The translations under genes were made by a program, and so were the position numbers. Positions 18,397-60,674 of a DNA stretch of 64,000 nucleotides are shown piece by piece. Under the pieces are notes generated by a model, which worked only from the letters and a program-made list of their open reading frames with translations, made no database searches and was not told where the DNA came from. The DNA is from Isoetes taiwanensis. Its lineage: Eukaryota; Streptophyta; Lycopodiopsida; Isoetales; Isoetaceae. Position 1 is the first letter of the stretch; the number at the start of each line of letters is the position of its first letter. The stretch is from NCBI GenBank assembly GCA_021234155.1, contig JAJEKV010000003.1, positions 10,478,413 through 10,542,412 on the forward strand, read 5' to 3'.

Positions 18397-18400
<4 letters not shown>

Positions 18401-19734: not shown

Positions 19735-19880
19735 TGAGAAGTGCGCTCCAGTCCACTGGATTTGCTAGAATTTTCGTCAGCAACTTGCTTTAGGCTTGTA
19801 GATCCACAAGCTTTGGTCATTGCTAGACCCTTGTTCATCTCCTTTTCTGTATTTCTGTTTCTGTATCTCTGCTTATCTGT
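19735..19880 (-). pseudogene. Internal exon-like segment (unit 1)
   Basis: On the minus strand, an acceptor-like GTTGCCACAG precedes an open stretch containing EMNKGLAMTKACGSTSLKQ and ending SSGLERTSQ just before GTTCTT. Equivalent segments lie 2,954 and about 5,900 bases further right. With the exon-like stretch at about 20095-20184 (TTTTAG acceptor, donor GTAAGT) and the terminal one at 18624-18779, it suggests the repeat unit carries the 3' half of a multi-exon gene. Reading phase across the proposed junctions could not be made fully consistent, so the exon ends are uncertain. Confidence 0.35.
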
Positions 19881-19890
19881 GGCAACGTAG

Positions 19891-20017
19891 ACACAAAATA
19901 AGGGGAATCCGCATCAGGCAATGCGGATTTTGCAATGTAAACACAAAATAAGGGGAATCCGCACCAGGCAATGCGGATTTTGCAGTCTATCACAAAGCCC
20001 ATACTCTGTATATATAA
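19891..20017. promoter_or_regulatory. Paired hairpins upstream of a TATA-like box (unit 1)
   Basis: Two 50-base direct repeats each contain a hairpin: stems AATCCGCAT/ATGCGGATT (19906-19914 with 19921-19929) and AATCCGCA/TGCGGATT (19956-19963 with 19972-19979). A TATATATAA sequence follows at 20009-20017. The same block occurs at about 22845-22971 and about 25803-25929. It could be a promoter with tandem factor-binding palindromes, or the LTR-like promoter of a retroelement. If the minus-strand exon model is right, it lies in an intron. Confidence 0.45.
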
Positions 20018-24304: not shown

Positions 24305-26520
24305 CCTTAGACCTGTCAGAAGACAGATTTCAATCTAGTTTAGACCTTTTCAAGGACTAAATTTCGATTCAATAAGCAGCCCTTGTATTTAAGTAGGTGA
24401 CATTAAACAACAAGGCCATGATCTGGTTACGTTTTCCCATATAAGCAAACAGCAATACTTTATTGTACCTCAAAAATATTTTCAAATACATCATAGACAT
24501 AAAATCTAACAAATCTTATAAGTATGCAGTTTTAAGCAACAATAAACATAAGACAAAGAGTCACAGGAGCAGTAATTCCAAGTTCATATTGTATGCATGA
24601 GTCTTCAAGACCAATTCGTGAGAAAGAATTTTCGCTTTTTGTCCATCTTCCATCTTTTAAACAAAACATAGCAGGGAGTAAAAAGTCCTGTTACCTGCAC
24701 CCAAAACAACAAAAACAAGCATTAGAATGGTTGCCATGCTGAGGGTAGCAGGTGTCATGGGACTTTTTAGGTTTATGCCCCTTCACCCTGCTTGTTTCAC
24801 AAACATATCATGGGGTAAGGACGTTTAGAATCATTAAAAACTGTTATCAACAGTTCACAAATGTCTACTATTTAACAACAAGTATTTATAGCTCAAATTT
24901 GCCTCAGTAAAGTAGAGAGCCTATTTTAAGTCATCAGCCTATGCATCCGATCTGCTAACAAGATTATCTATAATACTTTATGCTGCCGAAATAATCAGAA
25001 CTTTTATCTCCATAAGGATACATTCTAGCTGAACTTATGTTCACTTTATCTCTTAGTCTATACAAGAACTGCCCCTTATTTCTGATCCAGATATGTCTCT
25101 ATGATAGTAAGCAATTTCTGGTTAGTCTCTTACCAATAGACTCAACACCTATGCAGCTATCCTGATTACCATTAATTTCAGTAAGAAAGCCATTTCAGTT
25201 TGCTTAACAACTTAAACAATATTACTAGGTCTTATTTTACATTATTTACAAGCCTAGAACTTAGGACCCAGGCAGGTGCCTTTCATTTGTTAAAAGATCA
25301 TAATATCCTGATGGCTAATATGCTATCCAGATCTATCTTATCTCCTGCTGAAGGATAAATCAAATCCAGCCTTATTACTCTACATTCACTTAGTACCCCT
25401 GTACATCACAGATTTGTGTTAATTTCTAGTGCAAGAGCATTTCTAGATATGCTAACAGTTTGAAGGACATAAGCATAAGGCCATAGCAATATCTATTTCA
25501 ATAAAGAATTATAATGAGCAGCCTCGGGTCATTATTATCTAAATAACTATGATAAAACAAGTTGCATTATAACAACTCCAATTCATGAAGATATCCCCAT
25601 CTATATTCACCATGTAAAAAATTGAACTAAATTATAAGAACCTGAGAAGTGCGCTCCAGTCCACTGGATTTGCTAGAATTTTCGTCAGCAACTTGCTTTA
25701 GGCTTGTAGATCCACAAGCTTTGGTCATTGCTAGACCCTTGTTCATCTCCTTTTTTCGTATTTTGCGTTTTACGTATCTCCGCTTATCCGTGGGCAACGT
25801 AGACACAAAATAAGGGGAATCCGCATCAGGCAATGCGGATTTTGCAATGTAAACACAAAATAAGGGGAATCCGCACCAGGCAATGCGGATTTTGCAGTCT
25901 ATCACAAAGCCCATACTCTGTATATATAACCCAAAATTTGTCCTTAATCAAGACCCGTTTTATATGGCTTACGATCCTAGCACTTATCACCAACCCAAGA
26001 AGACTTACCTTTTGTGTGTTAGTCTGTAGCAATGATGTGGCGAGTTTTTCTCTCTCGGCCGGATTAGTGGAGAAACCAGCCGAATGTCGGTTTTTTCTTT
26101 TGCCCTAAAATCTTACGATATTAGGTTACATTTTCAAACAATTGCACACCATAAGTCATATTTGCCTATGGTTTTGCTTTATCCAAATATGCCCATTAAT
26201 ATATTTCCAGCTAGCCCCATCAAGTATAGTTTGCATTTTACAAGCTTTTTACACCTTAATACGTACTATATGCTTCATCTATATCCCTGTTAGCCTTTTG
26301 CTTTACCATATCATCAATTTCGAAATTATTTTTAACATGCTTTTTCATTCTCACAATAGCCTCCTATACAATCACATGCATTCTCACCACATGCTTACCA
26401 TAATCATTTCTGGCATGCTTTACCATGCCTACCATAGTCATTTGTGCAACATTATTCAAGTATTTCTAGCTAGCAACAACATATTCATATTGTGGCCCGT
26501 ACACCATAGTACCATAGGTC

Positions 26521-26524
<4 letters not shown>
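24305..26524. repeat. 2,954-bp tandem array, unit 3 (truncated)
   Basis: The unit matches the others until GGTCTTAT at 26524, then runs into a 31-base A tract instead of AATAATAAAAAAATCC. It carries more substitutions and small indels than units 1-2, mainly at 25750-26200. Truncation inside an A-rich stretch is consistent with recombination into the poly(A) tail of the flanking insertion. Confidence 0.95.

Positions 26525-26555
<31 letters not shown>
26525..26555 (+). other. Poly(A) tract closing the insertion
   Basis: 31 consecutive A residues, the same length as the tract at 18366-18396. They are followed directly by the right-hand target-site duplication (26554-26565). This supports one original poly(A) tail split by the tandem array. 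Confidence 0.7.
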
Positions 26556-26565: not shown

Positions 26566-27688
26566 AGAGCTTTCATAAAACAGACAACTGCTCAGCCCCT
26601 TATTCCCGACGAATGTACCAACGAGTTTTATCTGACGATTTAACGTCAGAATAATCGTCAGATAATTAGTCAGATGTAGTCAGATGAATAGTCAGAAGCA
26701 TAGTTAGTGTATTAGTCATATATTTAGTCAGACGCTTAGTCAGCTTATTAGTCAGATAAATCGTCATCTTCTTAGTCAAACGATTCAACAAGTTTTTAGT
26801 CAATGCAATACTTAGAATATTAGTCATTGTATTTGTTGGTCTATGAACTATTGCAATGTTTATATACCAAACAGGGATTTGAACCCTGATATTCCAGTTT
26901 ATAATAAGACTCTAACCTTTAATAAAACTTACAAATTAAACAACAAAATTGGTTATAGAATTTTAGCAACACAAGATTCTAGTATATAAGAAGACAACAT
27001 GCTTGTAGATCTGCATTTGCAATCATAATAACAGCGAAAATCATAGCGCAAATGCAAATGATGCCATTACATCTATAAACATTAAAATTTCTATACTAAA
27101 TTATCATTCAAGAGGTATCACATCCAACCTCTTTAAATTCCAAACACTAAAACCTGCTGAAATTATACCAAAACTAAGGAGCAAGTATCTTTCAATAATA
27201 TTCAGCCATAAATAGAATGCTTAAATACTATGAAAAAATGCAAAATCCAGAAGGGAGATCTAATATGGAAAAATTTAAGTAAAATGGGTCAAATAGTTGC
27301 AACATTGCACAAAGCCGAAGGTTCGTACAAAACCTTGTGCATCAGCGGACCATTCAAAACCAATAAATCTTTTATGTTGCATTGTTCTTTAAATCAAACT
27401 AAAACTTCATGCATAAAACCTGTTTTTGATGTGTCTTGAAATGTTTGAAGTTCCTCCTTGTCGGATTGAGTTTGTTTGTGAAATACAATCTGGAAGCATG
27501 TCTTCAGACCTATTTTTCATGTTGTAGAGCAGCACTTGCAGCACCTCTTATGGAGTAACAAAACCAAATAAATGTGGCAATATTTAACTTTTCCCAAATC
27601 TATGTTTGTAGCATGCATTTGTAAACCCTGCTCCCTGAACATTCCACACTTGCTGAAACATATGTTAGTCGTAGAAAACCATAAGGCA
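26566..27688. repeat. Module D, copy 4, right part
   Basis: This resumes exactly where 17187 stopped and contains the 12-bp repeat cluster (26620-26830) and the tRNA-like T-arm (26872-26888). It lacks the 930-base insertion seen in copy 2. It ends at AACCATAAGGCA, next to the zfwd C-terminus. Confidence 0.85.
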
Positions 27689-27845
27689 ATTCGAGTCTTC
27701 AATCTTCCAAGTCTTATGCAGACCAGTGCGATGTCAACTGCCAGAGATGTTACTGCTTTCTATATAGCTGAAACTGGCTTGTTTTCAGCACATAAAGGTG
27801 GGATTGTCAACGTTTGGCAACCTTCCATCTCCTTTCAACAATGAT
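27689..27845 (+). pseudogene. zfwd-type WD40 C-terminus, second copy
   Basis: An open frame encodes IRVFNLPSLMQTSAM, then AFYIAETGLFSAHKGG and IVNVWQP, the last blade and end of a zfwd-type propeller, stopping at TGA (27843-27845). This is the intact version of the frameshifted 3' end at 7668-7850, and homology continues through the 3' untranslated region to about 28190. Only the last exon-sized piece is present, joined to module D, so it is a gene fragment. Confidence 0.65.
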
Positions 27846-28190
27846 AGGAGACTACGTCAACAGCATCATGATAAGGATATGTGACATGCTTGTAAATGTT
27901 TCAAGTAGATAAGCTCTTCAATTTAGAGGGCCAGAAAAATGTACCGATGAAGCCCGTTGAAAGAGCACGAGAAAAATGTACAAAATGTACAGTGGAACAC
28001 TTCTGTAAAGTATCGGTGTCTTGCTGCAAAAGCAGCTGTAAAATGCACAAAGAGTTTTGGTTACGTGCAGACATATCTTTGTAAATATCATGATGCTAGT
28101 GAATTTGCTAGCAATCATTTTGGAATTCAATATTGATCTAAATCTTTAAGTTCATTTGCAGTTATAGTCCTTTGTTGTAAAAAAACATGC

Positions 28191-30271
28191 ATTTTGTAGT
28201 TGTAGCAGATCCATTGCACGTGGCTTTGCGGATTCATCACTAGGAATGGATGTCTAGGACTTATTGTGAATCTGTTTCTATTTCTAGGTCTGAAGTTGTA
28301 GCCCCTGTGTATGTATAATCTATGGTTGTAAAATATATTTTGCTAATGAGCTTAGCTACCAAGCATTTGATGCATTAGAGTAGCATATTTGGTTTTAGAA
28401 GCTTTATATAAACGATGCTCCTGCTTTAGAATTTGTAGTCAAATCTTGAGTTTGCAGTCAAAGGCACGCATTTTGTTGTTAGCTTCCCGCTAAGGGGATG
28501 AAGACAGAGGAGTTATCCAAAAACCAGTACACAATTAGTAACTCATGCTTAATTTATCGGCCAATAAGATAAGTGCACTTGACCAGCCATCTCATCATCT
28601 AGAGCAGTCCTGCAAACTTGTGCAACATAGTACCCTATAATGACAGTGACCTGCGACATGCTACAGTTTATGCATGACCATTACTGGAACAAGAAAAATT
28701 TGATGCAGATTGCTTGCCATATTGAAAATGTTACTATATATGTTTGAAAGTTCTGGAGATGTAATTGAAACGCGTATTATCTTCCTGCATTAGACACCCT
28801 ACTTTATCTTAGAGATTCAATAATGTAATGATGCAAATTTGGATCATTTTTACGGTCACTTTTTCTGAATTCCAAGCATTAGATTTTGGCTTTATTTAGC
28901 AGATTGTAAGATCAAGTATATTCCAAAATCACTTTCCGTATCGTGAGGCTTTTGCATTTTTGAGCCTATGCTTAAGATAAATTTTCTAGAAAATGTCATG
29001 AAATGGAAGTAGTTGGTCTACAACATCCAATTCAACCTTAAAAGCATGCACAATCAATTATAATGGCTGTAAGCAAAAGGAATTTGGAAAATATTATTCC
29101 ATTGCCAATGCTTTAACTATTCCAATATCAGACTTCTGTTTATTCTTTTTTACTAAATATAGTGATGCATAACATTTTATGGTGTTACACATTTTTGAAC
29201 ATACGGGAGCACTTTATGTATGCTTTTATCCTAAATAAAAGTGGCAATAAAAGTGGCGATACTTATCTGATATATATTACAGAAAGTGTGTACAAGAACT
29301 ATTTTCAAGGAGGCTTTCAACAAATCCCTTGCAAGAACGCAGTTTCTGGGACTCATTTGTAATAGCTTATGCTAAGCAAAGAATGCTTAAACTAGCCATG
29401 GAGTTATTTCGACAAATACCCCAAAACAATGATGCTCCATCACAATATCACAGCCTTTGCACAAAAGACTACTAAAAAGAAGCTTTTTTAGAACTTTCTA
29501 TCCAACAAATGACCTTGATACTTGCTCTCACAATGCTGTTTAAGGAAATGGAATATACATATGAGTTCCATATCGTTGTACTTACTGCTTTAATCATGTA
29601 TGCAAGTCTGCAAGTTTGACGATATACATACGTTACCAAAATGCATGAAACGAAGAGTAATTTTATGTGTTGCTATGTTGCTGTTTATGTTTTAAAAAAT
29701 TTAAAAATTTACTCCACTGTGCAGCAATGCATGTTAATGAGCTCTTTCTCTTTTCTTGTTTCTTTAGTTCACCAAATTGACAAGAATGTTTAAGGTAGAA
29801 ACACATTTCCTCTACGTTAGATCATTTTTGCCTTCTTGCCATTCGTATCAAGGACGCAACTCAAAGTGTTACTATCTTATTTTATGTCAATGACTTGCTT
29901 TCTAGAAATGACTATACTTCATGGAGCCCTTTGGCTTCCATATTCTCAGTCTTGCTATTTCTTCTGTTACTTCTACAAGTAGCACTTTTCATGAGTTACC
30001 AGAATTTTGTACAAAGACTATATCGTCTAAAGTAGAAACTACATTCATATAGATTCCATGATCTTGGGTTATTTAGGTGGTTGTCTATACGAGTTGATAT
30101 TAAGAATTGCAAGAGGTGCATGCAGCAACATTTTTAAAACTAGTAAATATTTCTTAAGCTGAATTTTATCAGCCATGAATCTATTTGATACTAATGTTTA
30201 ATGCTTATTCATTGAAAACATAAACACCTTGAGGATCAATATAAAGAGGCATGTCGACGAAGCTTTCATAA
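28191..30271. other. No recognisable gene; contains repeat E copy 1
   Basis: AT-rich sequence with only short chance frames. The segment about 28705-29010 is repeated in direct orientation at 31672-31975. No RNA gene or terminator is identified. Confidence 0.5.
28705..29010. repeat. Repeat E, copy 1
   Basis: This is similar to 31672-31975 over about 300 bases, beginning GCAGATTGCTTGCCATATTG, with scattered substitutions and small indels. The two copies flank the LTR relic at 30272-31640, as though the LTR sequence sits in a duplicated segment. Confidence 0.75.
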
Positions 30272-41586: not shown

Positions 41587-43092
41587 TGTGACCCTCCCCA
41601 AACCTATACGATGCTCCCATCGTATAAATACAGAAAATCCCCCCTTCCATGGTGACTACTGCAACATAGAAAGGCCCTCCATCTTCCTCGGACCACCAGT
41701 GATGGCCAGATGTCCGAGTGAACGACACGGAGGTGTCATTCGTCCCACTCCTTCTACGGGAATCCTATATAGCAGAAGCGTACATACATGTTAGCACCTA
41801 GCAATAATACAAATAAATAATATGCCATGACGAAGGGTGGCCCATCTATCATCACACGAATAACAATAGAGTAGCAATACAACATAGAAAATACATCAGA
41901 AATAAAGATTCTACCCTGGGCTCAGATTCAAGGGGGTCAACTGACAGTCAAGGCCTACGGATAACAACAGACGGAATCATAATAATGGCATTAGCTGGCA
42001 TAGAACAATGGTTAGAGTAGTCCACTCCATCCGCCCTTCCTGTGCACACTTTGCAGATAGGCTGAATCATGTTATGACGTGGTTATAGCCTTCCGGAGAT
42101 GCAATCTCATTGATTCACCCTATGAGACTACTTTGGGTTATATCTCCCCGGTCTGATGAGGCAGCCAGGAAATGAATTATGATAGTTCCATGGATGGCTA
42201 GAGGATCGTGGTTCCTTCAGGCAACCACACATCCGTACTCGACTTTAACTCCCCAAAATCCATAGGCCACCCCGGCGCGCCCATCGAGCCCAAGACATCC
42301 CTTTAGGTGCGTATCTTGCGGCCCTGGATGTGTTAGACCCATATCCGGCCCTACACCGTGACTGACTATAAGCCTAGCCCACTATAGAAATCATATAGTC
42401 ATATTAGGCAGGATTCCACCTTCGTTTCACCATCATGCTCGTTATCTGGTGCTGAAACACAGTATAGCATCCACAGCCCGGTGGGCTCTTGTGCACAGGC
42501 TACATTTAATGGGATTTAAGGGATTCTAGCGAGGACCATAACTAAATCTAGATAGCCATTAGATCTCTACCCCCCTTAATCCAATAGAACACAGGAGGAA
42601 CAGAAAGAACAAACAGCAATCAGATACAAACATCCATCATCATCATAAATAGATCATAGAATAGAATCTAATCATCCATCTACTCAAACAAGGGTCAGAA
42701 GAATACAAGCTATGCTAAAACTAAGTGGTATGATAGCTATCTCTCTAGTTCTCCATCCTTCTGGCTGGAACCAAGGTTGGATAGCAGCTCCTCCTCTACC
42801 AATCTCCCCCAATTCGAATTGGGGCAAATTGGGGTGGAAGCCCCAATTTGGATGTCCCAAATTAGCAAGCCTACCTTGCCCAATCGATTTGGGCCAGGTG
42901 GCAGCTCTAGATTAGTTATTATTAACTAATTTAATATTTTAACCCCTTGTAATATTAGGTTAAGCCCTAAATTCAAATTAAGGTTTAGGGTTAGGTTTCC
43001 ACCTTAATACATAGCTTATGCACCATTAATTATTCATAGTGACGTGTCATGTATTTATACCCAAAGTGCGTATAAATACGTGCAATGTCACA
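41587..43092 (-). mobile_element. Minus-strand Gypsy 3' LTR relic with polypurine tract
   Basis: The ends are TGTGACC... on the plus strand at 41587 and ...GTCACA at 43092, matching the TGTGACG/CGTCACA tips of the complete element. Colinear similarity to the reverse complement of 47133-48679 includes the CGAAGGGTGGC, GTGTCATTCG and GGTGGGCTCTTGTGCACAGG blocks. Just outside 43092 a purine tract (GGTGGGAAGAA on the minus strand) and GAGGACAACAT match the polypurine-tract region at 59050-59093, so this is a 3' LTR with a scrap of internal sequence. At the other end it interrupts LINE ORF2. Confidence 0.85.
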
Positions 43093-43124
43093 TTCTTCCC
43101 ACCTTGAAAATGATGTTGTCCTCA

Positions 43125-43380
43125 TCATCAATCCAACATGCCAAGGTGGCTCAAACATGCCACCTAGGCTCCAACATGCCAAAGTGGCTCAAACACGTCA
43201 CCTAGGCTCCAACATGCCAAGGTGGCTCCAACATTCCAATTCAAACATTAATGGCCTAAAAATGTCATTTCTAATTATTTTTTATAGTTCAAATGTTGTA
43301 CCCTTGGGATCCACCATGTCACCTAATTGGCTTAAACATGCCATGTGGGCTCCAACATACCATCTAAGCTCTAACATGCC
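43125..43380 (-). repeat. Satellite-like repeats (CATGCCAAGGTGG type)
   Basis: Imperfect 35-40-bp units alternate CCAACATGCCAAGGTGGCT with CATGCCACCTAGGCT. The reverse complement of the same family is at 61925-62115. The two loci also share the sequence around ACAACATTTGA next to the array. Confidence 0.8.
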
Positions 43381-47132: not shown

Positions 47133-48679
47133 TGTGACGTTCCAAGTATTTATACGGTGTACGTATAAATATATTGCACACGTCACTCGGTATAGGTACG
47201 CCACCTGGGGTATGATAACCTAGGGGGTTGGCCACAATGGTTTTAATTAGCTATGTTGACTTAATTATAAAGGATAATTATCTAAATACTTGCTATTAAG
47301 ACATCTAATAGTGGGAAGGCGCCATTTGGCATGACCCGGGTGGCCAGCATGAGGGTTGCTAAACTAGGCCACCAAAGGGAAGCGCCATCCTCATGTCAGC
47401 CCAATTTCGACCCAGCAAAGCGCCAGGAGCAGCTAAGCGCTCAGGAAACAGTTGTTGTTCGTCCCCAGATCGCCAAACACCCTTTCGCTGTTGCTGTTAC
47501 CCCAGAACAGCCCCATGGAAGCACCCCTTGACAACGGGTCCAGCCGAAACTCTGGTTAGTGGTAGTTAATTTTTAAATTGTAGAATAATACTCTAGTATT
47601 CTTTTCTGGATAGTTTTGGGTGAGATTAACCCTTCTTTGGTAACTAGGAATACTTTTCAATTATGAATGATACTCTATTATGGGATGGTCGATGTCTCTA
47701 TGAGTCAGTTTAGTCGCTCCAGTGAACAGGGATTAAAAGGGGGGTAGAGGCCTCTGAGCTTCAGTATAGAATGCTCCTAGTACTTCCTTTAACACCCTAG
47801 TAGTTTCGGCCTGTGCACAAGAGCCCACCGGGTCATTGACGCTATGGTCTGGCTTAGCACCAGACAAAGGACACAGTGGTGAAGTAGGGGGTGGAGTCTC
47901 GCACGAGCATAAAAGGCTCCTGAGACTCCTACAGTGGGCTAGGCCTGATAGCCGGTCACGTGGAGGGCCGGGTATGGGTCTGACACTCCCTGGGTATAGT
48001 GGTGTGACACGTATGGGGCACCATGCACTTTGAGTAGATTTAGGGTGAGTAAGCGGGGGTCGCTGATGCGGCATGTATTCTCTAGCTCACCCATGGAACC
48101 ACTGTGGTCTTGGAAGGGGACGCTTCCCCGACCTGCCTCATCGAACCAGGTGTCATGAACCTGGAGTAGGCTCAAAGGGTGATACCTTGAGTCTGCGTCT
48201 CCGGAAGGCTATAGCGAAGCCATAGCGTGAATCGACCCATCTGCAAAGTGTGCACAGGAGGGGCGGGTTCTATGCCAGCCAACGCCATGCTAAGATTCGG
48301 TCTTCCGATCTCCTGAGACCCAGCCGTCAGTCGCTCCCCCACTAGAGTCTGAGCCGGGGTAGAACCTGGGTTTTGGGGGTTTTTCTTAGTTTAGATGCAT
48401 ATTCTTTGTTGCTAGTATTTGGATGGATGCGCCACCCTTCAGGGTGGCTATTTGTATATGATCTATGTGGTGTGCTAACCCTTATATTCATGCTTCCGCG
48501 ACGTAGGCGCCATCGAAGGCGTGGGCCGAATGACCCCTCCATGTCCTTCACCCGAGTGTCTCTACGTAGACGGCCCGGGTTAGATGGAGGGCCCTGCTCG
48601 TGGCGAGATGGTCGCCATGGGAGGGAAAAGTCCCCGTATGTATACGACTGGGGGTCGTATATATTCAGGGAGCGTCACA
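47133..48679 (+). repeat. 5' LTR (1,547 bp)
   Basis: It starts TGTGACG and ends CGTCACA, a 7-bp terminal inverted repeat. The first 55 bases hold a hairpin (TTTATACG/CGTATAAA) nested in GTGACG...CGTCAC. Near the 3' end (about 48639-48660) is a second hairpin (TATACGAC/GTCGTATA). Compared with the 3' LTR it lacks two short insertions (near 60014 and 60231) and has a small extra segment near 48103. Confidence 0.95.
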
Positions 48680-48680
48680 G

Positions 48681-48693
48681 TAGTATCAGAGCC
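48681..48693 (+). promoter_or_regulatory. Primer-binding site for initiator-Met tRNA
   Basis: TAGTATCAGAGCC starts two bases after the LTR and differs at one position from TGGTATCAGAGCC, the complement of the plant initiator tRNA-Met 3' end. It primes minus-strand DNA synthesis. Confidence 0.9.
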
Positions 48694-48829
48694 GTGATTT
48701 CGGTTGCTCGAAATCATAGCACTGGCCGAACACTAACTCGTAGTATGGTAGTTAGGAGGAGGCTAAGTTAATGTGTTGATTAGTCCTCTTTGATGTTTGG
48801 TCCGGTGTTAGGTTAAATTAAGAAATTGT

Positions 48830-49324
48830 CATTGTCTCTTTGATTGTCCCGAGGTTCAACCAGTGTGGTCCTGGCTACAAGGTTTGTTTAACAGTACACT
48901 GGACTGCCGATGCATCCTTTTGGCGTCCTATCCCAATGGATGGCCTTCAGCTAAACAAAGGGCATTTCACCTTGGTTCCGGTTGGCTCCTATGGTCAATA
49001 TGGGAGCGTCGCAGACACCACATCTTTCAGGGCATTTATTCATCTGCACACAGTGTTATTACAGTGGCCCAGAAAAAGATATTGACAGCTTATGATTGTT
49101 CTTCCCTTGACTCAGAACTGGTGGATCGCATCTGGATTCAGTACCTCCGAATTGATTCTTATCATTAGTCTCCTATTATGGAGTAAGTACATTGTGCTCC
49201 AGGCTCATGCTCCTGTGGCATCTTTGTGTGCTTACACAGTTAGATGAGACATGTAAATTTTGTACTTTTTCTCTGATTAATAAACTTTTTGGCTTTCGTC
49301 CTTCAAAAAAAAAAAAAAAAAAAA
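48830..49324 (+). mobile_element. 5'-truncated LINE inside the Gypsy leader
   Basis: The insert is flanked by AGAAATTGT at 48821-48829 and 49325-49333 and ends with AATAAA (about 49280-49285) and about 21 A residues. The frame 48863-49168 contains LLWSIWERRRHHIFQG, typical of the C-terminal end of plant L1 ORF2. It is therefore a truncated L1 copy that jumped into the element's leader after, or shortly before, the element's own insertion. Confidence 0.85.
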
Positions 49325-49333
49325 AGAAATTGT

Positions 49334-49819
49334 AACTTTAAAGAAGATAGGGCGACTGGAGGGCCCAAGATTGGAGGAAATGTAAATATCAGTGGGTGGC
49401 TCAAAAGACGAAGAAGGTGGTTCCATTGGATCGGGCGTACTCAAATTACCCTAGAACAGTCGTCTCCAGGCGAAAAATGGTCAAGGGCAGGCCCGAAACC
49501 AACTTCCTACCGCTTGCTTTTTATCGCCTTGCGATCCGCGGTGGAAAGAGCTGAAAATGCAAATGGCCCCGACCGTCTGGAGATGGGAGTCAACGCGGCC
49601 CCGCAAGGTCAACTCGGGCGCCGCTTGCTTTTCGACGACCCCCAGTCGAGGCGGGAGCACGTATAATGCAGCCGGCGCCCGACCGTATGCCTCGCGTATT
49701 TCCGCCGTATAATTATTTTATAATAACAAAAATTAAAAAGTTAATAAAAAAAAAATTAAAATTTTAAAAGTTAACTGGCCGTTAAAATTTCTTTTTGTTG
49801 TTTGTTTTGCCTTGCCTTC
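49334..49819 (+). other. Gypsy leader, remainder
   Basis: A GC-rich stretch (49440-49690), then AT-rich (49715-49790), then a T-rich tract ending TTGCCTTCAG at 49821, a good match to a splice acceptor. A 125-codon frame at 49289-49666 starts inside the poly(A) of the LINE insert and has no recognisable domain. Confidence 0.5.
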
Positions 49820-49974
49820 AGCGTCTTCGACTGCCAGAGCCGCTGCCCGCCATCGCCACCGGACTTGACTCTGCTTTTTCGCCCTTGTGCCTTGTGGACC
49901 CTAGCGCCTCCTTTGTCGCCTTTTTCGCCACCAGCGCCTCACCGCTCGCCTTCGTGGACCTTAGTGCCACAGCT

Positions 49975-51206
49975 ATGGCCAATACCAAGAGCGCCCTGGA
50001 TCCTTCTACCCTGAGCATAGTGGAGATTTATGCCATGATCGCCCGGTACATGGCTACCGACCCGGCCTTCATCGACATCCTTTTGGATGAGCTGGTGAAC
50101 CGGTTTGAGAATAACGATAGGATCCCCTATCCTATCTATCACTTCTTAGAGCCATTTTTGATCAGGCTGAACCTTCGCCAGCTCTCCTACACCATCGTCG
50201 AGCAACATGACATGGTCATGATGCTGATTAAGTTCTATCCTCCTGAACAAGAGGGGCATACCGAGGAGGAGGACATCCGGGCAGAGGCCGACCGTGTCAG
50301 AGGCTTGGCCAGGGAGGATGATCACCGGGAAATAGAGCGGGCTGATACGGCCGCTCGGGGAAGGGAGTACTGGTACCTCGGGGACGGCCTTGCCGTCATA
50401 GATGGCAGAGCAATTGAGATGCCCCCATACCGTTGGCATGAGGATTCCCGCAGCTTTATATGGGGAGAAATCCCCGATATCAGCATAGATTATCTGACAA
50501 CCATTCAGATGGATATGGCTCAGCGGCCTCAGCGGTACCAGGCTGAGCTTCTTCACCGAAGCGCAGCCCAACATTTTGCTCAGGTCCAAGAAGATCTGAG
50601 GAGAGCCCGGGAGGAACAGGAGAAGCTTGAACAGGAGGAGAGGGATCGGCAGGACCAGTTGAACTAGCAGGGTGCCAGAGCATCCGGGAGTGGGCCGGGA
50701 CCAATACCCACTGAGCACACGACCATTAAGCATCGTAAGAAGGCCGTGGCTCGAAAATCCGGCAGTCAATACAAGGATAAATTAAAGATTGTCGGAGCTT
50801 TTGGCAAGAATACCAACTCCAGTCGGAGACAGCAGCGGGTGGATAGCTCCCGACCGGCTGTTGGGGCTAAGACGGTGCCATCACCGAAGGGGCCGCCCCA
50901 CAAAGGAAGCCCCATCGGTACCGACCCGGTACCGTGGCCTTGCGGGAAATCCGCAAGTTTCAGAAGTCCACCCAGCTTCTAATACGGAAGCTTCCCTTCC
51001 AGAGGTTGGTCCGGGAGATTGCCCAGGAATTCAAGACCGATCTCCGCTTCCAGACCTTTGCCATTTTGGCACTCCAAGAGGCTGCTGAAGCCTATTTGGT
51101 GGCACTTTTTGGTGACGCTAACCTTTGCGCGATTCACGCAAAGAGAGTTACCATTATGCCAAAGGACTTAGCCCTCGCCCGCAGGATTCGGGGGGAGCGA
51201 CCCTAG
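49975..51206 (+). CDS. Extra ORF a: coiled-coil protein fused to histone H3
   Basis: ATG 49975 opens 230 codons of a protein I do not recognise. It is helical, with a charged coiled coil ([19 protein letters not shown]) at its end. A TAG at 50665-50667 is followed in the same phase by a Lys/Arg-rich tail in which [10 protein letters not shown] (50731-50760) matches histone H3 at R2, K4, A7, R8, K9 and S10. After one frame change near 50870-50900, codons 50904-51203 give exactly 100 residues aligning without gaps to H3 positions 36-135, from [10 protein letters not shown] to RRIRGERP. Tyr41 and Leu90 fit the H3.3 type; about a dozen residues differ. H3 is half of the nucleosome's central tetramer. 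Here it has no introns and sits in retroelement context, so it is probably a captured mRNA. The stop and frameshift may be decay or sequence error. Confidence 0.85.
50904..51206 (+). CDS. Histone H3 core domain within extra ORF a
   Basis: All helices of the H3 fold are present: the alpha-N region ([18 protein letters not shown]), then [32 protein letters not shown], and [16 protein letters not shown]. Notable changes from the usual plant H3 are Glu59 to Gln, Ser87 to Phe, Gly102 to Ala, Glu105 to Gly, Thr107 to Ala, Ile-Gln at 124-125 to Leu-Ala and the last Ala to Pro. There is no loop-1 insertion of the sort seen in centromeric CENH3. One hundred uninterrupted codons in an element otherwise full of breaks hint at past selection. 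Confidence 0.95.
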
Positions 51207-51413
51207 CCTTGCGTTACCGGGGTTTTCCCATTGTACATATTTTTTTCGAATAAATAATAAAAACTCTTTTTGTTTTAAGTTAAAGTTGTATTGAGAACCT
51301 TATATTTTATTTTAAATATGAAATTGCTGACATCAGCGTAATAATAAAAAGGGTTTAAAAAGGGTTTTTAGTGTGTACTCCAACTTTCTCTTTCATTTTC
51401 TTGCTTCTTCTAG
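51207..51413 (+). promoter_or_regulatory. AT-rich spacer with splice-acceptor-like end
   Basis: The spacer contains AATAAATAATAAAA (about 51250-51263), possible polyadenylation signals. It ends with a long pyrimidine tract (TTTCTCTTTCATTTTCTTGC) and CTTCTAG at 51413, five bases before the next ATG. Confidence 0.55.
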
Positions 51414-51417
51414 TGCC

Positions 51418-52823
51418 ATGGTTGCCGCTGACCTTATCGCCTGGTACCATGATGGAGAGCAATGGGATCCGCAAGTCCCTTTTGACCTGCTCCGGCCCTT
51501 GCTATGCCAGCGCCTAGACCTCCTTGCCAACATGTTGCGGCATCCGGATTATGCCGGATTTCTAGATTTCTACAGGGAGGAGATGCTCCCTCTGTGTATT
51601 CCTCTTGGGGATCCTCCCCAACTATATCTGGAGCGGGAGGTAGTCCGGGAGATGTTAGGAGGAGACACTCATGCATATGACGTGCTAAAGGGAAAGCTCC
51701 GATGGGGCAAACACCTGCCCGTTGTGCAGCATCAGGGGCGACAATACCTTGAGGTCGCCTTCACCCTAGCTATCCTCATGGACCAATACGTCGAGGATGA
51801 AACCTTGCCTGTAGAGAAAGGCAAACTACCTGAGTCTTCAGAGGAGGGGGAAGACGAACACATCGGCATGGGCGACTTCGCCCGTTGGAAATAGTTAGCG
51901 GAAGAGCTGCCACCGCGCCGGGAGCAAGCTGTAGGCTTGTCAGGGTAGGGTTGGATGCCCTTCCAGTTATCTATCACCAAGGGCAAGAATATCTTCTCCT
52001 GGATGATATTATCTGGACTTATCACATGGTGGCTGGATTTAGGCGCAAGCGTAAAGACCACGTGCTTTATGAGCTTGCAGAGTATTGTATGGATGACTTC
52101 ATCGACTTCACTTCTATTGAGCTACCTCCGGAGGTGCAGCAGCTACTCCAGTTCCGCCAGGAGACTATCGAACCCGCCGAGACATTGCTACGGCTTCGGG
52201 ACTTCGTGATGCAGGAGCCGGCCTCTCAGCCCTCACCAGATGCCTTCACGGCTATGGGACCTCACGTCCCAAATATCAATATGGTTGAGGTTCCCTCGGG
52301 TTCGGATGACGAGGGAGAGGATTTATATCATAACCCTGCTCATGTGAAGGAGAAGCAGCAAGAACTTAAGGAAGAGGAGGTTTCCATGGATTTGGATAAG
52401 GAGGTGACCACATCAGAGACCTCGCAAGGGAAGGTATCGGGCAACCACCTTACCCGTTTCTTTTTGTCAGCCTTCCGACAGGGGCAAGTCCTTTTTATAG
52501 CCCGGGATTTAGGGCCGGAGGCTGAAGCTTCATGGTGGACCCTCCGTGCTCTCTCTACACTGGCCGGGCATAAGAAGCTGCCCTATCGTACGTTTACTTA
52601 TGTACTCGTGCGTCGGGATCTCGCCTTAACGGCCTTGGGCCAAGATATTGCGCCCTGGATGAGCATGAAGCTCCTTACGGCGGCCCCATTGGCCGTTGCC
52701 TATCCACCAGAGGTTGCATCTATTGCGGCTGCCACAGTGGACCTCGGGGTGACTCTGCTGCGACACCGACCGCCTCCACCACCTCCTAGACCTACGGATG
52801 AAGAGGGAGGACCTAGTTCCTAA
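51418..52823 (+). CDS. Extra ORF b: unrecognised protein with a duplicated motif
   Basis: Two frames, 51418-51894 and about 51890-52823, overlap end to start and look like one protein of about 468 residues with a single frame change at the TAG (51892-51894). LPVVQHQGRQYL (51715-51750) and LPVIYHQGQEYLL (from 51960), each followed by a hydrophobic helix, are two copies of one motif about 80 residues apart. An acidic linker follows (GSDDEGEDLYHN), then a C-terminal region (LTRFFLSAFRQGQVLFIARDL) and a Pro-rich end. No known gag, protease or envelope motif is visible. Function is unknown; the position suggests an accessory or structural role. Confidence 0.6.
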
Positions 52824-53047
52824 ATAATTGTACTACACATTTTTTTTGTATTGTGTACAGTTTTGGTTTGGCAAATACTTTAGCCATTTTATAATATAAT
52901 ACACCCTTTTTCTCATTAATTGTGATTACTGTCTAGGATGAATATAATTGAGAATTGTTTCTTCCCATGCTGTCTTCATCAAATTATTGGCGTTTGGAAT
53001 ATAATGGAATTACAAAATGTTCTATATTCATTGTCATTGTCTTGCAG

Positions 53048-53501
53048 AGGAGACCCTTTGGGAATATGAGGAGAGGATTACTGACATGATCCGAAGGGAG
53101 GATCCAGGACCGAACAGGACTATGGCCAAAGATATGGAGAATATCCAGAATGGGATGAAGGCTATGAGATGGAACCCCCGCCACCAGGGGAACCCTATGA
53201 TCCTGACAAAGGGTTGGAGATAGTTAACATCCTTAGGGACAGAGCTTGCCAGGACCTCAAGCAGACGATGTGCCGTACCTGGGACTATTGGAGCATGACC
53301 AGGCACGAGGCTTTCGAGGACGCCAACGACCACCTATGGCAACTCTTCTATGCTCTGCGAAGGCTTTTCAACCTTCTCATTGTTAGCCCAACATGGGAAT
53401 ACCAACCAGTGATTGTCCAAGCCTGGGCACGCTACAAGCTCGTTAGGGCTGTGCGTGAGAGTGTTCGCTATTCAATTCTGTACCCCTTTGCGAACCCCTA
53501 G
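53048..53501 (+). CDS. Extra ORF c: small unrecognised protein
   Basis: The segment follows a strong acceptor-like tract (CATTGTCATTGTCTTGCAG, ending at 53047). The first open phase has EETLWEYEERITDMIRRED without a good early ATG, so it may need splicing to an upstream exon. Near 53100-53120 it changes to the phase containing MEPPPPGEPYDPD (53169) and a helical, Trp-rich C-terminus (DYWSMTRHEAFEDANDHLW, then WARYKLVRAVRES) ending in a TAG at 53499-53501. About 150 residues; no family recognised. Confidence 0.5.
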
Positions 53502-53736
53502 GTCGGATCTTTCCAGTTTCGTTTTTTTATGATGTTGTGAGTTCACTCTAAGTTCCAGTTGTCTCATGTTATCTTTGTATAATACTCCTGTACCAACTTT
53601 TGGTGTGAAACTGTAATAGGAAAGTTTTTCCTCTTATAATAATAAATTCCCTTTGTGTTCTCTCTCTCTATCCCTTTGTTCGACATGCTATAATTTGTAA
53701 GAATTTATCTGTTATAAATATGCTTATACCTTTTTC

Positions 53737-54709
53737 ATGCTCGATTTAGACGGTGCCCGTAACGCCGCTTGGCAGACACCCTCCAATGCCAGTAGGCTGA
53801 CTCCTGAACAGGAACTGATGTTAATGAAAAGGCAGTTAGGCGAATTACAGGCCTATGTACTGCATGCCAACCCACCGCAACAAAACCAGGAAGATGGACC
53901 GAAATTACCTCCGCTACCACCGAGTCCACCTGCACAACAGCCATCTCCCCCGGGAGCTAGTCCTGTACCTGCACCAAGGAGGCCTCATGCTAAGCGTCAC
54001 CGAAGTTCCTCGGATAGTGCCACTTCCTCATGTTCAACCACTTCGGGGTCTTCTAGTTCATCAATATCAGCTGGTGACCATGCAAAGCGTCGGGATAAGG
54101 AGTACCGTAAGACGGTTGATACCGCCATAACTAGCATATGGAAGAATAGGAAATTGGCCCAGTTTGATGGAAAATCCAGAGGCGATCAATGCACGAGTCC
54201 CGGTTGGACGAAATGAAGGAGTTCGGAAAGTCTTATGGCATGACGGAAAAGGATACAGAAAGGTTGCCACCACCAACCTTACAGAGGGCGCCCGTATTTG
54301 GTGGAAGGGCTATGCGAGGCCAAGCATCCGGGCGGAGCGGGATGCAACTTCGTGAAGTTTGCCAAAGGCGTTCAAGTCGCATTATGTGCCTCGTGGCGCA
54401 CAAATGCCGCCAGATTCAGACCTTCTATAGGTTGGAGCGTAGAGGGGTATGTCGGTCCGTGCTTACACCGATGAGTTTATGCGCTTTGAGGTCAGTATGT
54501 TCCGGGAATGAATGAAAAGAGAGCCGAGGGGTTATATTGAAGGGTTGGCCCCATCAATTAAACGGATGGTTAAAGCCATAGACCCAAAATCGATTCATGA
54601 GGCCGAGGCTAAGGCATTGAGCCTCGAGGAGGACACACCAAGAAATCAGTATCCGCGTCCTACTCCTTATTCGCAGCCCCGGCCAGCCACACCATACAAA
54701 CCCCCGTAA
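53737..54709 (+). pseudogene. gag, frameshifted
   Basis: ATG 53737 starts a Pro/Ser-rich N-terminus with a coiled-coil-like segment (PEQELMLMKRQLGELQAY). Capsid-type blocks follow in shifting phases: IWKNRKLAQFDGKS, LTEGARIWWKGY (the WW block of retrotransposon gag), FYRLERRG, and YIEGLAPSIKRMVKAIDP. At least three frame changes lie between 54170 and 54520. Gag would form the particle that packages element RNA. It follows an acceptor-like TTTAG (53749) but its own ATG lies just before that site. Confidence 0.8.
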
Positions 54710-54789
54710 GCCAAGTCCGGCCCTTCTCAACGTAACTTCGTATAGCCGGCCGGAAAAAAGTTACTTTCAAAGACGGTGACAAACGAGCA

Positions 54790-54915
54790 ATGTCGGCAAG
54801 GAAGTACGAAGCCTCTTACGCCTATTCCTAAGGAGGCCCGAGAACAAAGCCACGGATAAGGCATGTTACGTGTGTATGCGACTGGCACTTTATGCACAAC
54901 CGTCCTTATGTTACT
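54790..54915 (+). pseudogene. Degenerate CCHC zinc knuckle
   Basis: CYVCMR (about 54864-54881) is followed after a one-base slip by HFMHN and then Arg where the last Cys is expected. The spacing fits the nucleocapsid CX2CX4HX4C motif. The broken final Cys and the slip suggest loss of RNA-binding function. Confidence 0.55.
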
Positions 54916-57900
54916 CGATCGCCTAAATTGCCATGGCCGACCTCGATTGGGACGAAGCCGGAGTCAACTTTACCCGCCGAGGGCGAGGCTCCCCGAGTAT
55001 ATTCATGGTGCGTCTCATATTCTTGCAGCTATAGAAACCGGCAATGCCGAAAGTCAGCCTGCTGTCATTTCCACCATAGGTCAAGTAGACAGTAAGCCTT
55101 TTGTAATTCTTATGGATACGGGAAGTACACATAATTTTGCTTCCCCTAGAATGGCTCAGGTCTTACAGCTTGAAACATTAAGGTCTCGACCAAGGCCTGT
55201 CACTCTAGCCAGTGGTAAGGTCAGGCATACTCATGGTTGTCGCATCAATCTTAAGATGCAGTTGCCAGGTGCACCAGTGGCTTTGGGTGCCGAGTTGATG
55301 GACATTGGCAAATATGACCTCATTATTGGTATGGAATTCTTGGCATCCGCAAAAGCCAACATAGACTGCGAGAAGAGGGAAGTTACCTTCAACGCAGCTA
55401 ATGGAGCCCGCGTGACTAATATTAAAGGTGAACCCTTCAACCCTATCATGCAGTCTATGTCCATCAGACAGTTAGATAAAGCTATACGCAAGGAAAAGCT
55501 CCTCTGCATCATTTCCCTTGCGTTCCTAGAGTCAGATGCTAAACAGAAGCAAGTAATCGATACCTTGCCAGAAGGGATTGCTCATCTTCTCCGGGAATTT
55601 GGTGACCTTTTTCCAGATGACATTCAGAAGCTTCCTCCTTTTAGAGGGGTGGAATGTGAAATAGTTTTAGAGCCAGGTACCAAGCCTACCAGCAAGGCCC
55701 CGTACCGTATGAGTCCTCCAGAATTGGCAGAACTTAAGAAGCAACTTCAGGAGCTACTAAATCTAGGTTTCATCCGACCTAGTGTCTCGCCTTTTGGCGC
55801 TCCTATTCTCTTCGTCAAGAAAAAGGACGGTTCGCTGAGGATGTGTATTGATTATCGGCAACTTAACAAGCATACCATCAAGAATCGCTATGCTTTGCCC
55901 AGGGCAGATGACCTAATGGATCAGTTGCAAGGAGCTAAGTACTTCTCCAAGATTGATCTATGCTCCGGATACCATCAGATAAGGATTAAAGAAGAGGACA
56001 TCCATAAGTATGCTTTTCGCACTAGATATGGGCATTATGAATTCACAGTTATGCCTTTTGGACTAACTAATGCCCCAGCAACCTTCATGCGACTAATGAA
56101 TGATGTCTTTCGACAGTACTTGGATGATTTCGTTGTTATATTCTTCGATGACATTCTCATCTACAGTAAGACCCTTGAGGAGCATGAGAAGCATCTTAAA
56201 TTGGCCCTACAAAGGCTGAGACGTCATCAGCTCTATGCCAAGTTCTCTAAGTGCAAGTTTGCCACTCCGAAAGTCGATTATTTAGGCCATGTCATCTCGG
56301 CAGAGGGAATTGCTACAGACCCAGCAAAAATAGAGGCCGTAAGGGAATGGCCTATTCCAGGGAATGTTTCCGAAGTCCGGAGTTTCTTGGGATTAGCAGG
56401 ATACTATCAAAAATTTGTAAAGGATTTTGCGAAGATTGCAGCTCCTCTTACAAATCTCACAAAGCATGAGAAGGTGAAAGATTAGATGGACCACTGGAAG
56501 ACAAAAGTTCAGCAGAGTTTCCAGCAGCTTAAGGATGCCCTAACATCAGCACCAGTTCTCACTTTACCCGATCCTGAACGGGATAAGCTAGTGGCAACAG
56601 ATGCCAGTAAAATTGCCACCGGTGGGGTCCTAATGCAGGAGGGGAGGGTAATTGCCTACGATTCAAAGAAGATGAACGAAACGGAACAGCGATATCCCAC
56701 CCATGATCAAGAATTGTTAGCCATTGTCCGTGCTCTGCGGATATGGAGACACTACCTTCTTGGTAGAAGATTCCAGTTGGATACGGATCATCAAAGTCTC
56801 TGTTATTTATCCACCCAGCCGAATCTCAACCTCCGTCAGAGAAGATGGATGGAATTTCTCGAGGAGTATGATTTTGAGATTATGTATAAGCCTGGCAAGC
56901 ACAATGTGGTTGCGGATGCTTTATCACGCCATCCCTTGGTGACCCGAACCCATTGTAATGCCATTTCCACACTCACCAGTGAGTTTGGGAAATAGATAGA
57001 GCACACCTTGGCCACAGATCCGGAGTTCTGTGACATTTGGAACAGTTTGGCTAAGGAAGCTCGTACGGATGCAGAACGCGACGCTTTTCGTGCATATAGA
57101 AAGAGGGCAACTTATTATATCACAAGGATAAGCTGTGTGTACCAGAGACTTCAGGGGTATGGAAGCTCATTCTTCATGACACACACAATAGCCCTATAGC
57201 TGGACACGCAGGTTTTATGAAAACCTACTTTAAGATTCGCTCCAGTTATTTCTGGCCTTCTATGAAAAAAGACATTGCCAATTACATAGCAAACAAAAGC
57301 GGAACAGTTAAGGATTCCAGGCGAGTTGCAACCTCTGGATGTGCCAAACGCCAAATGGGAAGTGATAACCATGGATTTCATTGTGGGCCTTCCAAGAACT
57401 CTCCGGGGGTATGATGCCTTAATGGTTGTGGTCGACAAATTGTCGAAAATGACTCATTTCTTGCCATGTCGGACCACGGATACAGCCTTTGATACTGCTC
57501 TGCTATTTGCCAAGGAGATCTTCAGATTACACGGAATGCCACGAGTAATTGTGTCGGATAGGGATCCCAAATTCGTAAGTGCATTCTGGAAGGATTTCTT
57601 TGCCACCATTCAGACCAAGCTTGCTATGAGTACGACCTATCATCCTCAAACAGACGGTCAGACAGAACGTACCAATCGTATTATAGAGGATATGCTAAGA
57701 AGTTATGTGTGGAGTAAGCAATCACAATGGGCTGATTATATTTATCTGGTCGAGTTTGCCTATAACAGCATGAAACAGGAGTCTTCCAGGATGTCTCCCT
57801 TTATGATAAACTATGGTTACCAATGTCTTACTCCAGACACCTGGCATAACCCTGTTTCTAAGGTCGAGGTTTCTCAAAAACTCCTCCTGGAGATGCAAGC

Positions 57901-58503
57901 TCTGGTCGAAGAAGTTAGGGGCTACTTATTAGCTGCACGCAGTCGTCAGAAGAGTGTAGCCGATAAGCACAGAACCCCACGCGTTTTTCAGGTGGGCGAA
58001 TCAGTTTGGCTTAAGATTAAAGTGAAGCAAGCCAAGCTTAAGATTGGCAATTGCAAAAAGTTGGCCCCTCGATGGGCTGGACCGTTCAAGATTATTGAGC
58101 GCGTTATCGCTTAGAATTGCCACCCCGCTTGAAGATCCATAAGGTCTTCCACGTGAGTCTTCTGAAGCAACACACCCCTGATCCAGAGGAGGTTTTGGAG
58201 ACCCCAACCCTCCTAGAAATGATAGAGGAGCAACTCGAAATAGTGCCTGAAGCTCTTCTTGATCGAGCTTACAAACAAACCAGAAGGACTCAAATGTTGC
58301 AATACTTGGTTAAGTGGAAACACTTACCAGTTGAGGATGCTACGTGGGTGATGAAGATAGACCTTGACAAGCACTATCCGGATTTCATGCGTGAATCTCA
58401 AGGCCGCACCATCAACGATGCTATCAACCCCGCAGTCAGTGGTAAGCTTAGAAGCCTGATTACCAGGGGTGCTGCCTCAGAGGGGAGGATGCATCGTAGA
58501 TAA
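54863..58503 (+). pseudogene. pol: protease, RT, RNase H, integrase, chromodomain
   Basis: Protease: DTGSTHNF with the catalytic Asp at 55115. [17 protein letters not shown], then FFDDILIYS with the catalytic Asp pair at 56147-56152. RNase H: LVATDAS, DQELLAIV and LDTDHQSL keep the D-E-D set. Integrase: the HHCC finger keeps its His residues but its Cys pair is lost near 57290; the core keeps the DDE set in ITMDFIVGLP, VSDRDPKF and GQTERTNR. A chromodomain (LVKWKHLPVEDATWV, about 58304-58348) ends the protein, which defines a chromovirus. Breaks are in-frame TAGs at 56483, 56993 and 58112 and frame changes near 57118, 57300 and 58105. All enzymes act in the particle or during integration. Confidence 0.95.
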
Positions 58504-59080
58504 TAACAAGTAACCGATGATGAGATCACCTTGTGTTCTCTAGGGCGTGGTGTGCTGTCAACAGCGACCTCACCGCAACTTGTTGCAAGAGCATATAGTT
58601 GATAGGCCGCTTTCCTCTCGGCTACAATGGGAACTTGCCCAATCCCTATGCTGCAAGGAACCGCGAACCATAGACATGATAGGTTCCCTGATAGATAGTA
58701 TGTTCTTTTAATTATTATAAGGGGGTGGTCCCTTCAACCACAATTTCATCATATATACTGATATACTGACATGTGCAGGCCATTAAGTAGGACGTGCCCT
58801 GCCCATGCTAGAGGGTTACTGACGACCCGAACTCTTTAGTGTTGTTTTGCCTACATGTTTTGTTTATCGTTCCACTGATGTTGGTATTGGACTTCGGTCC
58901 TTAAACTGTTTGATTATGATAATCATGTTGAATGCACCACGGTGCTTGAAATGTTTTGCAAACTTTAAAGTTTTGAATATATGTATTACTTTTGGAAAAA
59001 AATAACGAATTACCTTCCTTCATTATCTATTTCGTTGTGCATTTCTAACTAACCCCAATGCTGAGGACAACATTGATTTT
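58504..59080 (+). other. Untranslated region between pol and the polypurine tract
   Basis: No frame is open. Blocks such as CTACAATGGGAAC, GTGGTCCCTTCAACCACAA and TGCAGGCCA recur at 61275-61445 in the relic of a related element, so this non-coding stretch is conserved between families. The nested GTCCCTTCAACCAC could be a structural or packaging signal. Confidence 0.5.
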
Positions 59081-59093
59081 AAGGAGGGGAGAA
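59081..59093 (+). promoter_or_regulatory. Polypurine tract
   Basis: AAGGAGGGGAGAA sits directly before the TGTGACG start of the 3' LTR. It is the standard primer site for plus-strand DNA synthesis. Confidence 0.9.
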
Positions 59094-60669
59094 TGTGACG
59101 TTCCAAGTATTTATACGGTGTACGTATAAATATATTGCACACGTCACTCGGTATAGGTACGCCACCTGGGGTATGATAACCTAGGGGGTTGGCCACAATG
59201 GTTTTAATTAGCTATGTTAACTTAATTATAAAGGATAATTATCTAAATACTTGCTATTAAGACATCTAATAGTGGGAAGGCGCCATTTGGCATGACCCGG
59301 GTGGCCAGCATGAGGGTTGCTAAACTAGGCCACCAAAGGGAAGCGCCATCCTCATGTCAGCCCAATTTCGATCCAGCAAAGCGCCAGGAGCAGCTAAGCG
59401 CTCAGGAAACAGTTGCTGTTCGTCCCCAGATCGCCAAACACCCTTTCGCTGTTGCTCTTACCCCAGAACAGCCCCATGGAAGCACCCCTTGACAACGGGT
59501 CCAGCCGAAACTCTAGTTAGTGGTAGTTAATTTGCAAATTGTAGAATAATACTCTAGTATTCTTTTCTGGATAGTTTTGGGTGAGATTAGCCCTTCTTTG
59601 GTAACTAGGAATACTTTTCAATTATGAATGATACTCTATTATGGGATGGTCGATGTCTCTATGAGTCAGTTTAGTCGCTCCAGTGAACATGGATTAAAAG
59701 GGGGGTAGAGGCCTCTGAGCTTGAGTATAGAATGCTCCTAGTACTTCCTTTAACACCCTAGTAGTTTCGGCCTGTGCACAAGAGCCCACCGGGTCATAGA
59801 CGCTATGGTCTGGCTTACCACCAGACAAAGGACACAGTGGTGAAGTAGGGGATGGAGTCTCGCACGAGCATAAAAGGCTCCTGAGACTCCTACAGTGGGC
59901 TAGGCCTGATAGCCGGTCACGTGGAGGGCCGGGTATGGGTCTGACACTCCCTGGGTGTAGTGGTGTGACCCGTATGGGGCACCATGCACTTTGAGTAGAT
60001 TTAGGGTGAGTAAGTCGGGTACGGATGCGGGGGTCGCTGATGCGGCACGTATTCTCTAGCTCACCCATGGAACCACTGTAGGGGACGCTTCCCCGACCTG
60101 CCTCATCGGACCAGGTGTCATGAACCTGGAGTAGGCTCAAAGGGTGATACCTTGAGTCTGCGTCTCCGGAAGGCTATAGCGAAGCCATAGCGTGAATCGA
60201 CCCATCTGCAAAGTGTGCACAGGAGGGGCGGATGGAGTGGACAACCCTAGCCGATGTTCTATGCCAGCCAATGCCATGCTAAGATTCGGTCTGCCGATCT
60301 CCTGAGACCCAGCCGTCAGTCGCTCCCCCACTAGAGTCTGAGCCGGGGTAGAACCTGGATTTTGGGGGTTTTTCTTAGTTTAGATGCATATTCTTTGTTG
60401 CTAGTATTTGGATGGATGCGCCACCCTTCAGGGTGGCTATTTGTATATGATCTATGTGGTGTGCTAACCCTTGTATTCATGCTTCCGCGACGTAGGCGCC
60501 CATCGAAGGCGTGGGCCGAATGACCCCTCCATGTCCTTCACCCGAGCGTCTCTACGTAGACGGCCCGGGTTAGATGGAGGGCCCTGCTCGTGGCGAGATG
60601 GTCGCCATGGGAGGGGAAAGTCCCCGTATGTATACGACCGGGGGTCGTATATATTCAGGGAGCGTCACA
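59094..60669 (+). repeat. 3' LTR (1,576 bp)
   Basis: This matches the 5' LTR end to end. Extra bases relative to it lie near 60014-60028 and 60231-60256; a short segment near 60080 is missing. The tip hairpin reads TATACGACC/GGTCGTATA, one pair longer than in the 5' LTR. Confidence 0.95.
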
Positions 60670-60674
60670 GACAT
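60670..60674. other. Target-site duplication, right (GACAT)
   Basis: Exact copy of 47128-47132. Confidence 0.9.

Follow-up and report, generated by a model that had tools for sequence, protein, structure and literature searches.

A chromodomain-bearing LTR retrotransposon of the Ty3/gypsy type in Isoetes taiwanensis carries the core of a histone H3 upstream of its gag gene. The element is structurally complete and occupies positions 47133–60669 of the window, by which we mean the whole 64-kb stretch of DNA that was analysed (Table 1). The structure is real and unusual; its function is inferred only, and from one decayed copy. Of several possible explanations we tentatively favour, at somewhat less than an even chance, a process where an H3.3-type core was captured before this copy inserted, would have been made as the C-terminal part of a protein joining ORF1 and H3, and would have been put into nucleosomes.

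Table 1. Features of the retrotransposon and of the sequence nested in it (positions in the 64-kb window).
Feature	Position	Strand	Remarks
5' LTR	47133..48679	+	1547 bp; ends TGTGACG...CGTCACA; target duplication GACAT just before
Primer binding site region	48680..48704	+	TAGTATCAGAGC...
Nested poly(A)-tailed retroposon insert	48830..49323	+	in element leader, foreign to element proper; 10-bp duplication AAGAAATTGT
ORF1	49975..50664	+	230 codons; no known domain; acidic (46 D/E, 27 K/R)
Single in-frame TAG	50665..50667	+	between ORF1 and basic extension
Basic extension, ORF1 frame	50668..50892	+	75 residues; 17 K/R, 3 D/E; no recognisable H3 tail
Histone H3 core, residues 36–135, and stop	50904..51206	+	87/100 identical to H3.3
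AT-rich spacer	51207..51413	+	28.5% GC at 51200–51399; AATAAA-like motif; acceptor-like site just before ORF2
ORF2	51418..52823	+	two frames (51418–51894, 51834–52823); no known domain
ORF3 region	53048..53501	+	open frame 53085–53501; no known domain; acceptor-like site at 53048
gag	53737..54515	+	heavily decayed; frame change; 3 stops inside Retrotrans_gag match (~54260–54496)
Protease and reverse transcriptase	54860..56485	+	Pfam RVP_2 5.3e-14, RVT_1 1e-38
RNase H, integrase (zinc-binding, core), group II-type chromodomain	56486..58503	+	Pfam; frame changes present
Polypurine tract region	59064..59093	+	AAGGAGGGGAGAA
3' LTR	59094..60669	+	1576 bp; target duplication GACAT directly after (60670–60674)

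That the H3 lies in an LTR element, after its 5' LTR and before gag, had been implied in a preliminary description of this DNA, and is confirmed by the LTRs, the target duplication and the Pfam domains. An LTR retrotransposon is identified by the LTR pair, the duplicated target site, a polypurine tract and a primer site, the last of which (TAGTATCAGAGC) resembles the initiator-tRNA-Met type. The genes follow the Ty3/gypsy order, gag and then PR-RT-RH-IN with the integrase last, and a Chromo match (E 8.8e-9) within 58099–58500, at the C-terminal end of the integrase, marks the element as a chromovirus. The gag match to Retrotrans_gag (E 1.2e-4, 22.6 bits) falls slightly under the curated cut-off of 24.1. 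The two LTRs differ by 24 substitutions at 1538 aligned sites (K2P 0.0158; 98.4% alike at aligned sites), and their alignment contains 47 gap columns and 4 indels. A tRNA scan found 0 genes, and Rfam, applied to the whole window at the gathering threshold, gave 0 matches.

The rest of the window holds an older relic of a related LTR on the reverse strand (41718–43128; 74–84% identical in pieces). By tblastn, no remains of ORF1–3, H3, gag or PR-RT were found beside this relic, and at the translated level the interior of the element matched nothing in 1–47100. A tblastn search of the window with 9 element proteins, the integrase not among them, gave no second H3 or ORF1. Within about the first 27 kb, segments of 0.2–1.3 kb are repeated at 93–99.6%; a near-identical repeat (98.9%) with a period of ~2954 bp extends over 18386–26537, a WD40-repeat coding stretch at 6431–7747 is probably a host gene exon, and 7668–8219 is repeated at 27687–28209 with 87.5% identity.

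The H3 stretch consists of 100 codons (50904–51203) closed by a stop (51204–51206). As reported in the preliminary description, these codons are uninterrupted, lie one frame change away from ORF1 and align to H3 36–135 without a gap (phmmer E 2.5e-54; Pfam Histone E 7.5e-42). The stretch is intronless and comprises the histone-fold core with the alpha-N helix; a predicted model of it, built with 20 homologs, is of low confidence (pLDDT 53.8). Thirteen residues differ from H3.3, namely K36R, Y54F, E59Q, D77E, S86T, H87F, V89I, G102A, E105G, T107A, I124L, Q125A and A135P. Plant H3.3 is marked by Y41, H87 and L90, and by T31 in the tail, and H3.1 has S at 87. Y41 and L90 are present here, residue 87 is F (neither H nor S) and residue 31 lies outside the aligned core. 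A centromeric histone was considered and rejected: CENH3 has a longer loop 1 and a strongly diverged core, and the core found here is ungapped and 87% identical to H3.3.

The claim that the 230-codon ORF1 continues in phase across one TAG also holds, the frame being open to 50979. As there is no ATG in the H3 frame at 50871–50903, the core can be read in this copy only through a fusion. It is placed to be made as the fusion that had been suggested, but the TAG and the frame change break this fusion, and the copy is unable to make it as it stands. The RNA fold around the TAG is nothing special (z -0.52), and inspection by eye gave no clear -1 slippery heptamer ahead of the H3 core.

Two further claims, an H3-like tail at 50731–50760 and with it a full-length H3, did not survive. 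In local alignment to the H3 tail, the 75-residue upstream stretch reaches a score of 30.0, where shuffled sequences average 31.0 (P 0.58), and its best 10-mer aligned without gaps shares 6 residues with the tail (P 0.09 against shuffles). GC content by codon position is flat in this basic extension (0.55, 0.57 and 0.56). Since the stretch resembles the H3 tail no better than shuffled sequence does, we interpret the structure as an H3 core, residues 36–135 only, with a foreign N-terminus. A full-length H3 is rejected, as tail residues 1–35 are unrecognisable.

At least 17 nucleotide changes separate the core from H3.3, this being the minimum needed for the amino-acid replacements, where ~2.4 would be expected per 300 nt since insertion. 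The probability of 17 or more changes in 300 nt is 7e-10 at the LTR divergence, and 0.001 at three times that rate, which implies that the H3 divergence is older than the insertion of this copy, provided that the source was an ordinary H3. For the 8.5 kb of coding sequence as a whole, a calculation by hand from the LTR pair predicts ~11 indels and ~3 new stops. Observed were 6 frame changes between domain-bearing stretches (some of which may be normal for the element), together with stops after ORF1 (one), in pol (one, at 56483), in the 237-nt gag match (three) and in the gag-protease link (four). Outside gag, this decay fits decay after insertion. In gag itself, the 3 stops in 237 nt compare with ~0.1 predicted by hand from the LTR age, an excess which suggests that the parent may already have been broken and non-autonomous. 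It may then have been moved by a helper, and the break between ORF1 and H3 may be as old. Gag and the gag-protease link (54260–54859) are stop-rich despite the close likeness (98.4%) of the LTRs, as if broken before insertion. The H3 core has 0 stops against the 3 in the gag match of the same copy; taken alone, a stop-free core is weak evidence (P ~0.04 by composition, ~0.5 in simulation).

The amino-acid changes in the H3 core are conservative. Their mean BLOSUM62 score is 0.77, against -0.31 to -0.48 in neutral simulations run at four transition weights (P 0.0045–0.0085), and P was 0.0013–0.010 when the ends were trimmed or H3.1 served as the reference. None of the positions assigned to contacts with DNA (16/16 unchanged), with the other H3 (6/6) or with ASF1 (7/7) is altered. 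Whether the changes fall at tolerant sites was less consistent between two homolog sets. In the first (best 120 of 7997 scored, of which 106 had a long ungapped match and 14 were dropped, leaving 39 distinct cores), 12/13 changed sites are variable against 33/87 other sites (P 2.3e-4), and 10/13 element residues occur in some other H3; the ordering of this set by similarity to the element favours such a result. In the second (best 120 of 5323 proteins; 27 distinct cores), the figures are 5/13 against 17/87 (P 0.12), with 1/13 element residues present. As site tolerance was not clearly repeated, it is only suggestive. E105G affects a site invariant in the 106 homologs and may be recent decay. 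We regard it as an even call that capture of the H3 preceded this insertion and that it was under constraint as H3 within the element. The constraint tests would fit selection inside the element and selection on a diverged host H3 before capture alike, and they cannot tell the two apart.

This second origin of the conserved look is central to a rival explanation that we consider a realistic possibility, short of probable, where H3 was transduced by template switching and carried unused as a passive passenger, after diverging as a host H3 variant. Captured genes are common in LTR elements: 672 LTR-captured genes are described in rice and 1,343 in sorghum, the majority of those in rice under non-purifying selection (PMC3726574). 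The single copy, the broken fusion, the decay of gag beyond the LTR age and the tolerance test that was not repeated all agree with an unused cargo. On the other hand, a host H3 with ~13 changes would be needed, and no one protein among the 240 in the matches listed shares more than 4/13 of the element-specific residues. That the reading frame of ORF1 extends as far as the H3 would, moreover, have to be a coincidence.

In another explanation, a host gene already consisted of ORF1 and H3, as an N-terminally extended H3 variant, and was captured whole. The extra ORFs are mostly of 50–60% GC, with spacers of ~28–39%, against mostly 39–49% in pol, and may thus be foreign to the pol part. ORF2 and ORF3, however, have a similar GC content and likewise match no Pfam domain, H3 being the only match among the ORFs between the 5' LTR and gag. 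Relatives of ORF1 are also missing from the searches made: a protein search with ORF1 examined 713 candidates and gave none at E up to 10, and among the 240 proteins from the H3-type searches (matches listed) there was none at E up to 1. With ORF1 and H3 joined as the query, 5323 proteins matched (E up to 0.001); the 120 best of these all have Pfam Histone and align over 23–46% of the query. A fern protein was rejected as an ORF1-H3 relative, being an H3.3-type tandem fragment with no match to ORF1. Scans of IMG/VR gave 0 relatives among 10 stretches for ORF1, and 1 locus, at 38% identity, among 5 stretches for H3. We consider capture of a ready-made fusion gene improbable.

ORF1 folded alone is predicted with confidence only in a long C-terminal helix, residues 184–229 (pLDDT 42.6 overall), which is probably a coiled coil. 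A sub-threshold tRNA-synthetase Pfam match in ORF1 (16.5 bits, cut-off 23.4) was disregarded. A splice acceptor scan with a rough frequency matrix ranked the site at 51414, before ORF2, sixth of 733 AG sites and that at 53048, before ORF3, second. The top-ranked site (52861) lies just past the stop of ORF2, and several other high-ranking sites are inside ORFs; spliced sub-genomic messages from 51414 and 53048 are hinted at, no more.

A 5'-truncated processed H3 pseudogene, inserted by chance after integration of the element, might begin at residue 36 as this H3 does, and one poly(A)-tailed insert is indeed nested in the element (48830–49323, with no Pfam domain in the two frames searched). Around the H3, by contrast, there is no direct repeat beyond chance (an 8-mer, P 0.34), the 3' flank has short A runs rather than a long poly(A), and the divergence is far above the age of the copy unless the source had already diverged; we reject a processed pseudogene as quite improbable. 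It is very improbable that an H3 locus and the element were joined in assembly, as the LTR pair, the target duplication and the element genes flank H3 on both sides, even if there is a single assembly and the frame breaks could be read errors.

The preliminary description further stated that chromovirus integrases carry a chromodomain able to read H3 tails, and suggested that a fused H3 could serve as a beacon for the integrase. The fused H3 may alternatively act as a decoy against silencing or compact DNA in the particle, the two other roles suggested there. A chromodomain is indeed present. With HP1 Y24, W45 and Y48 placed by our reading on its LEIVPEALLDR and VKWKHLP stretches, the first and third cage aromatics (two of three) are absent, the group II pattern. 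Lacking these two residues, the chromodomain would probably not recognise H3K9me in the classical manner. A beacon in the H3K9me sense is rejected, as two cage aromatics are missing and the H3 tail is unrecognisable, and the beacon idea as a whole is weakened by the same tail and by the group II assignment. The element agrees with plant chromoviruses of group II in gene order, in the chromodomain following the integrase and in the loss of these aromatics; it differs in its additional ORFs, with the H3 core, upstream of gag. Group II chromodomains, in which the first and usually the third cage aromatic are missing, are reported only from plant Gypsy elements (PMC3350952). Such domains are reported to be directed to heterochromatin nonetheless, through a mechanism not yet known (PMC12786077), so that there may be a link to the element's H3.

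The explanation that we favour would begin with the capture of an H3.3-type coding sequence, probably as mRNA, before insertion of this copy. An ancestor would have translated the core as the C-terminus of ORF1-H3, with the TAG and the frame change arising as later decay. The fusion would pair with host H4, and H3 chaperones would place it in nucleosomes, so that the acidic ORF1 domain would be anchored to chromatin and the modifiable H3 tail replaced. The upstream extension has no canonical K4, K9 or K27 context, and K36 has become R. From the unrecognisable tail lysine contexts and K36R we propose entry into nucleosomes with anti-silencing or tethering: nucleosomes with ORF1-H3 would be resistant to silencing of the H3K9 type, and might hold proteins of the element on chromatin. 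That the H3 core acts in nucleosomes is a doubtful though possible step, and anti-silencing rather than tethering would be an unlikely role. It is also rather unlikely that a whole family of chromodomain LTR elements encodes its own nucleosomal histone, an ORF1-H3 selected across insertions that would replace host H3 and either block tail-based silencing or tether element proteins.

Histones borne by viral genomes are known. Single viral H3s, found in a xenomavirus, the Dishui Lake phycodnavirus and metagenomic giant viruses, have a conserved core (73–89% identity), and some have an extended or divergent, unrelated N-terminus (PMC9145170). The 87% identity of the element's core falls in this range. 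The chaperone site, residues 87–90, is partly kept: the element has FAIL where the xenomavirus has SAIL and the phycodnavirus TAIL (PMC9145170). The viral examples are, however, DNA viruses and not LTR retrotransposons, and the word "retrotransposon" is absent from the main text of that review. The bracovirus histone CvBV-H4 is a virus-borne host histone with a core ~87% identical, which enters host nucleosomes and alters expression (PMC9145170, PMC5423620), but it is an H4, acting in a parasitised insect, and not an H3. Among retroelements, an orchid Ty3/gypsy family captured a host regulatory domain, an m6A demethylase, as an extra ORF and kept it; it is represented by 38 and 23 consensus sequences, against the one decayed copy here (PMC9289625). 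The same study screened 121 angiosperm genomes and found 15 extra domains, and none of the 9 named in the relevant section is a histone. LTR-captured genes likewise place host coding sequence inside an LTR element, as here (PMC3726574). The word "histone" is absent from the main texts of PMC3726574, PMC7264820, PMC6431247 and PMC5408684. A search by titles and the starts of abstracts, covering open-access papers apart from preprints, found no histone-encoding retrotransposon among the matches listed.

The possible significance lies in the tail. Plants silence retrotransposons via marks on the H3 tail, and a tail-less H3 made by an element would, if our explanation is correct, be a direct counter-measure to this silencing. 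Retroelements would then join the DNA viruses as captors of histones, and nature would have supplied a test of how large a part of H3 is still required after replacement of the tail.
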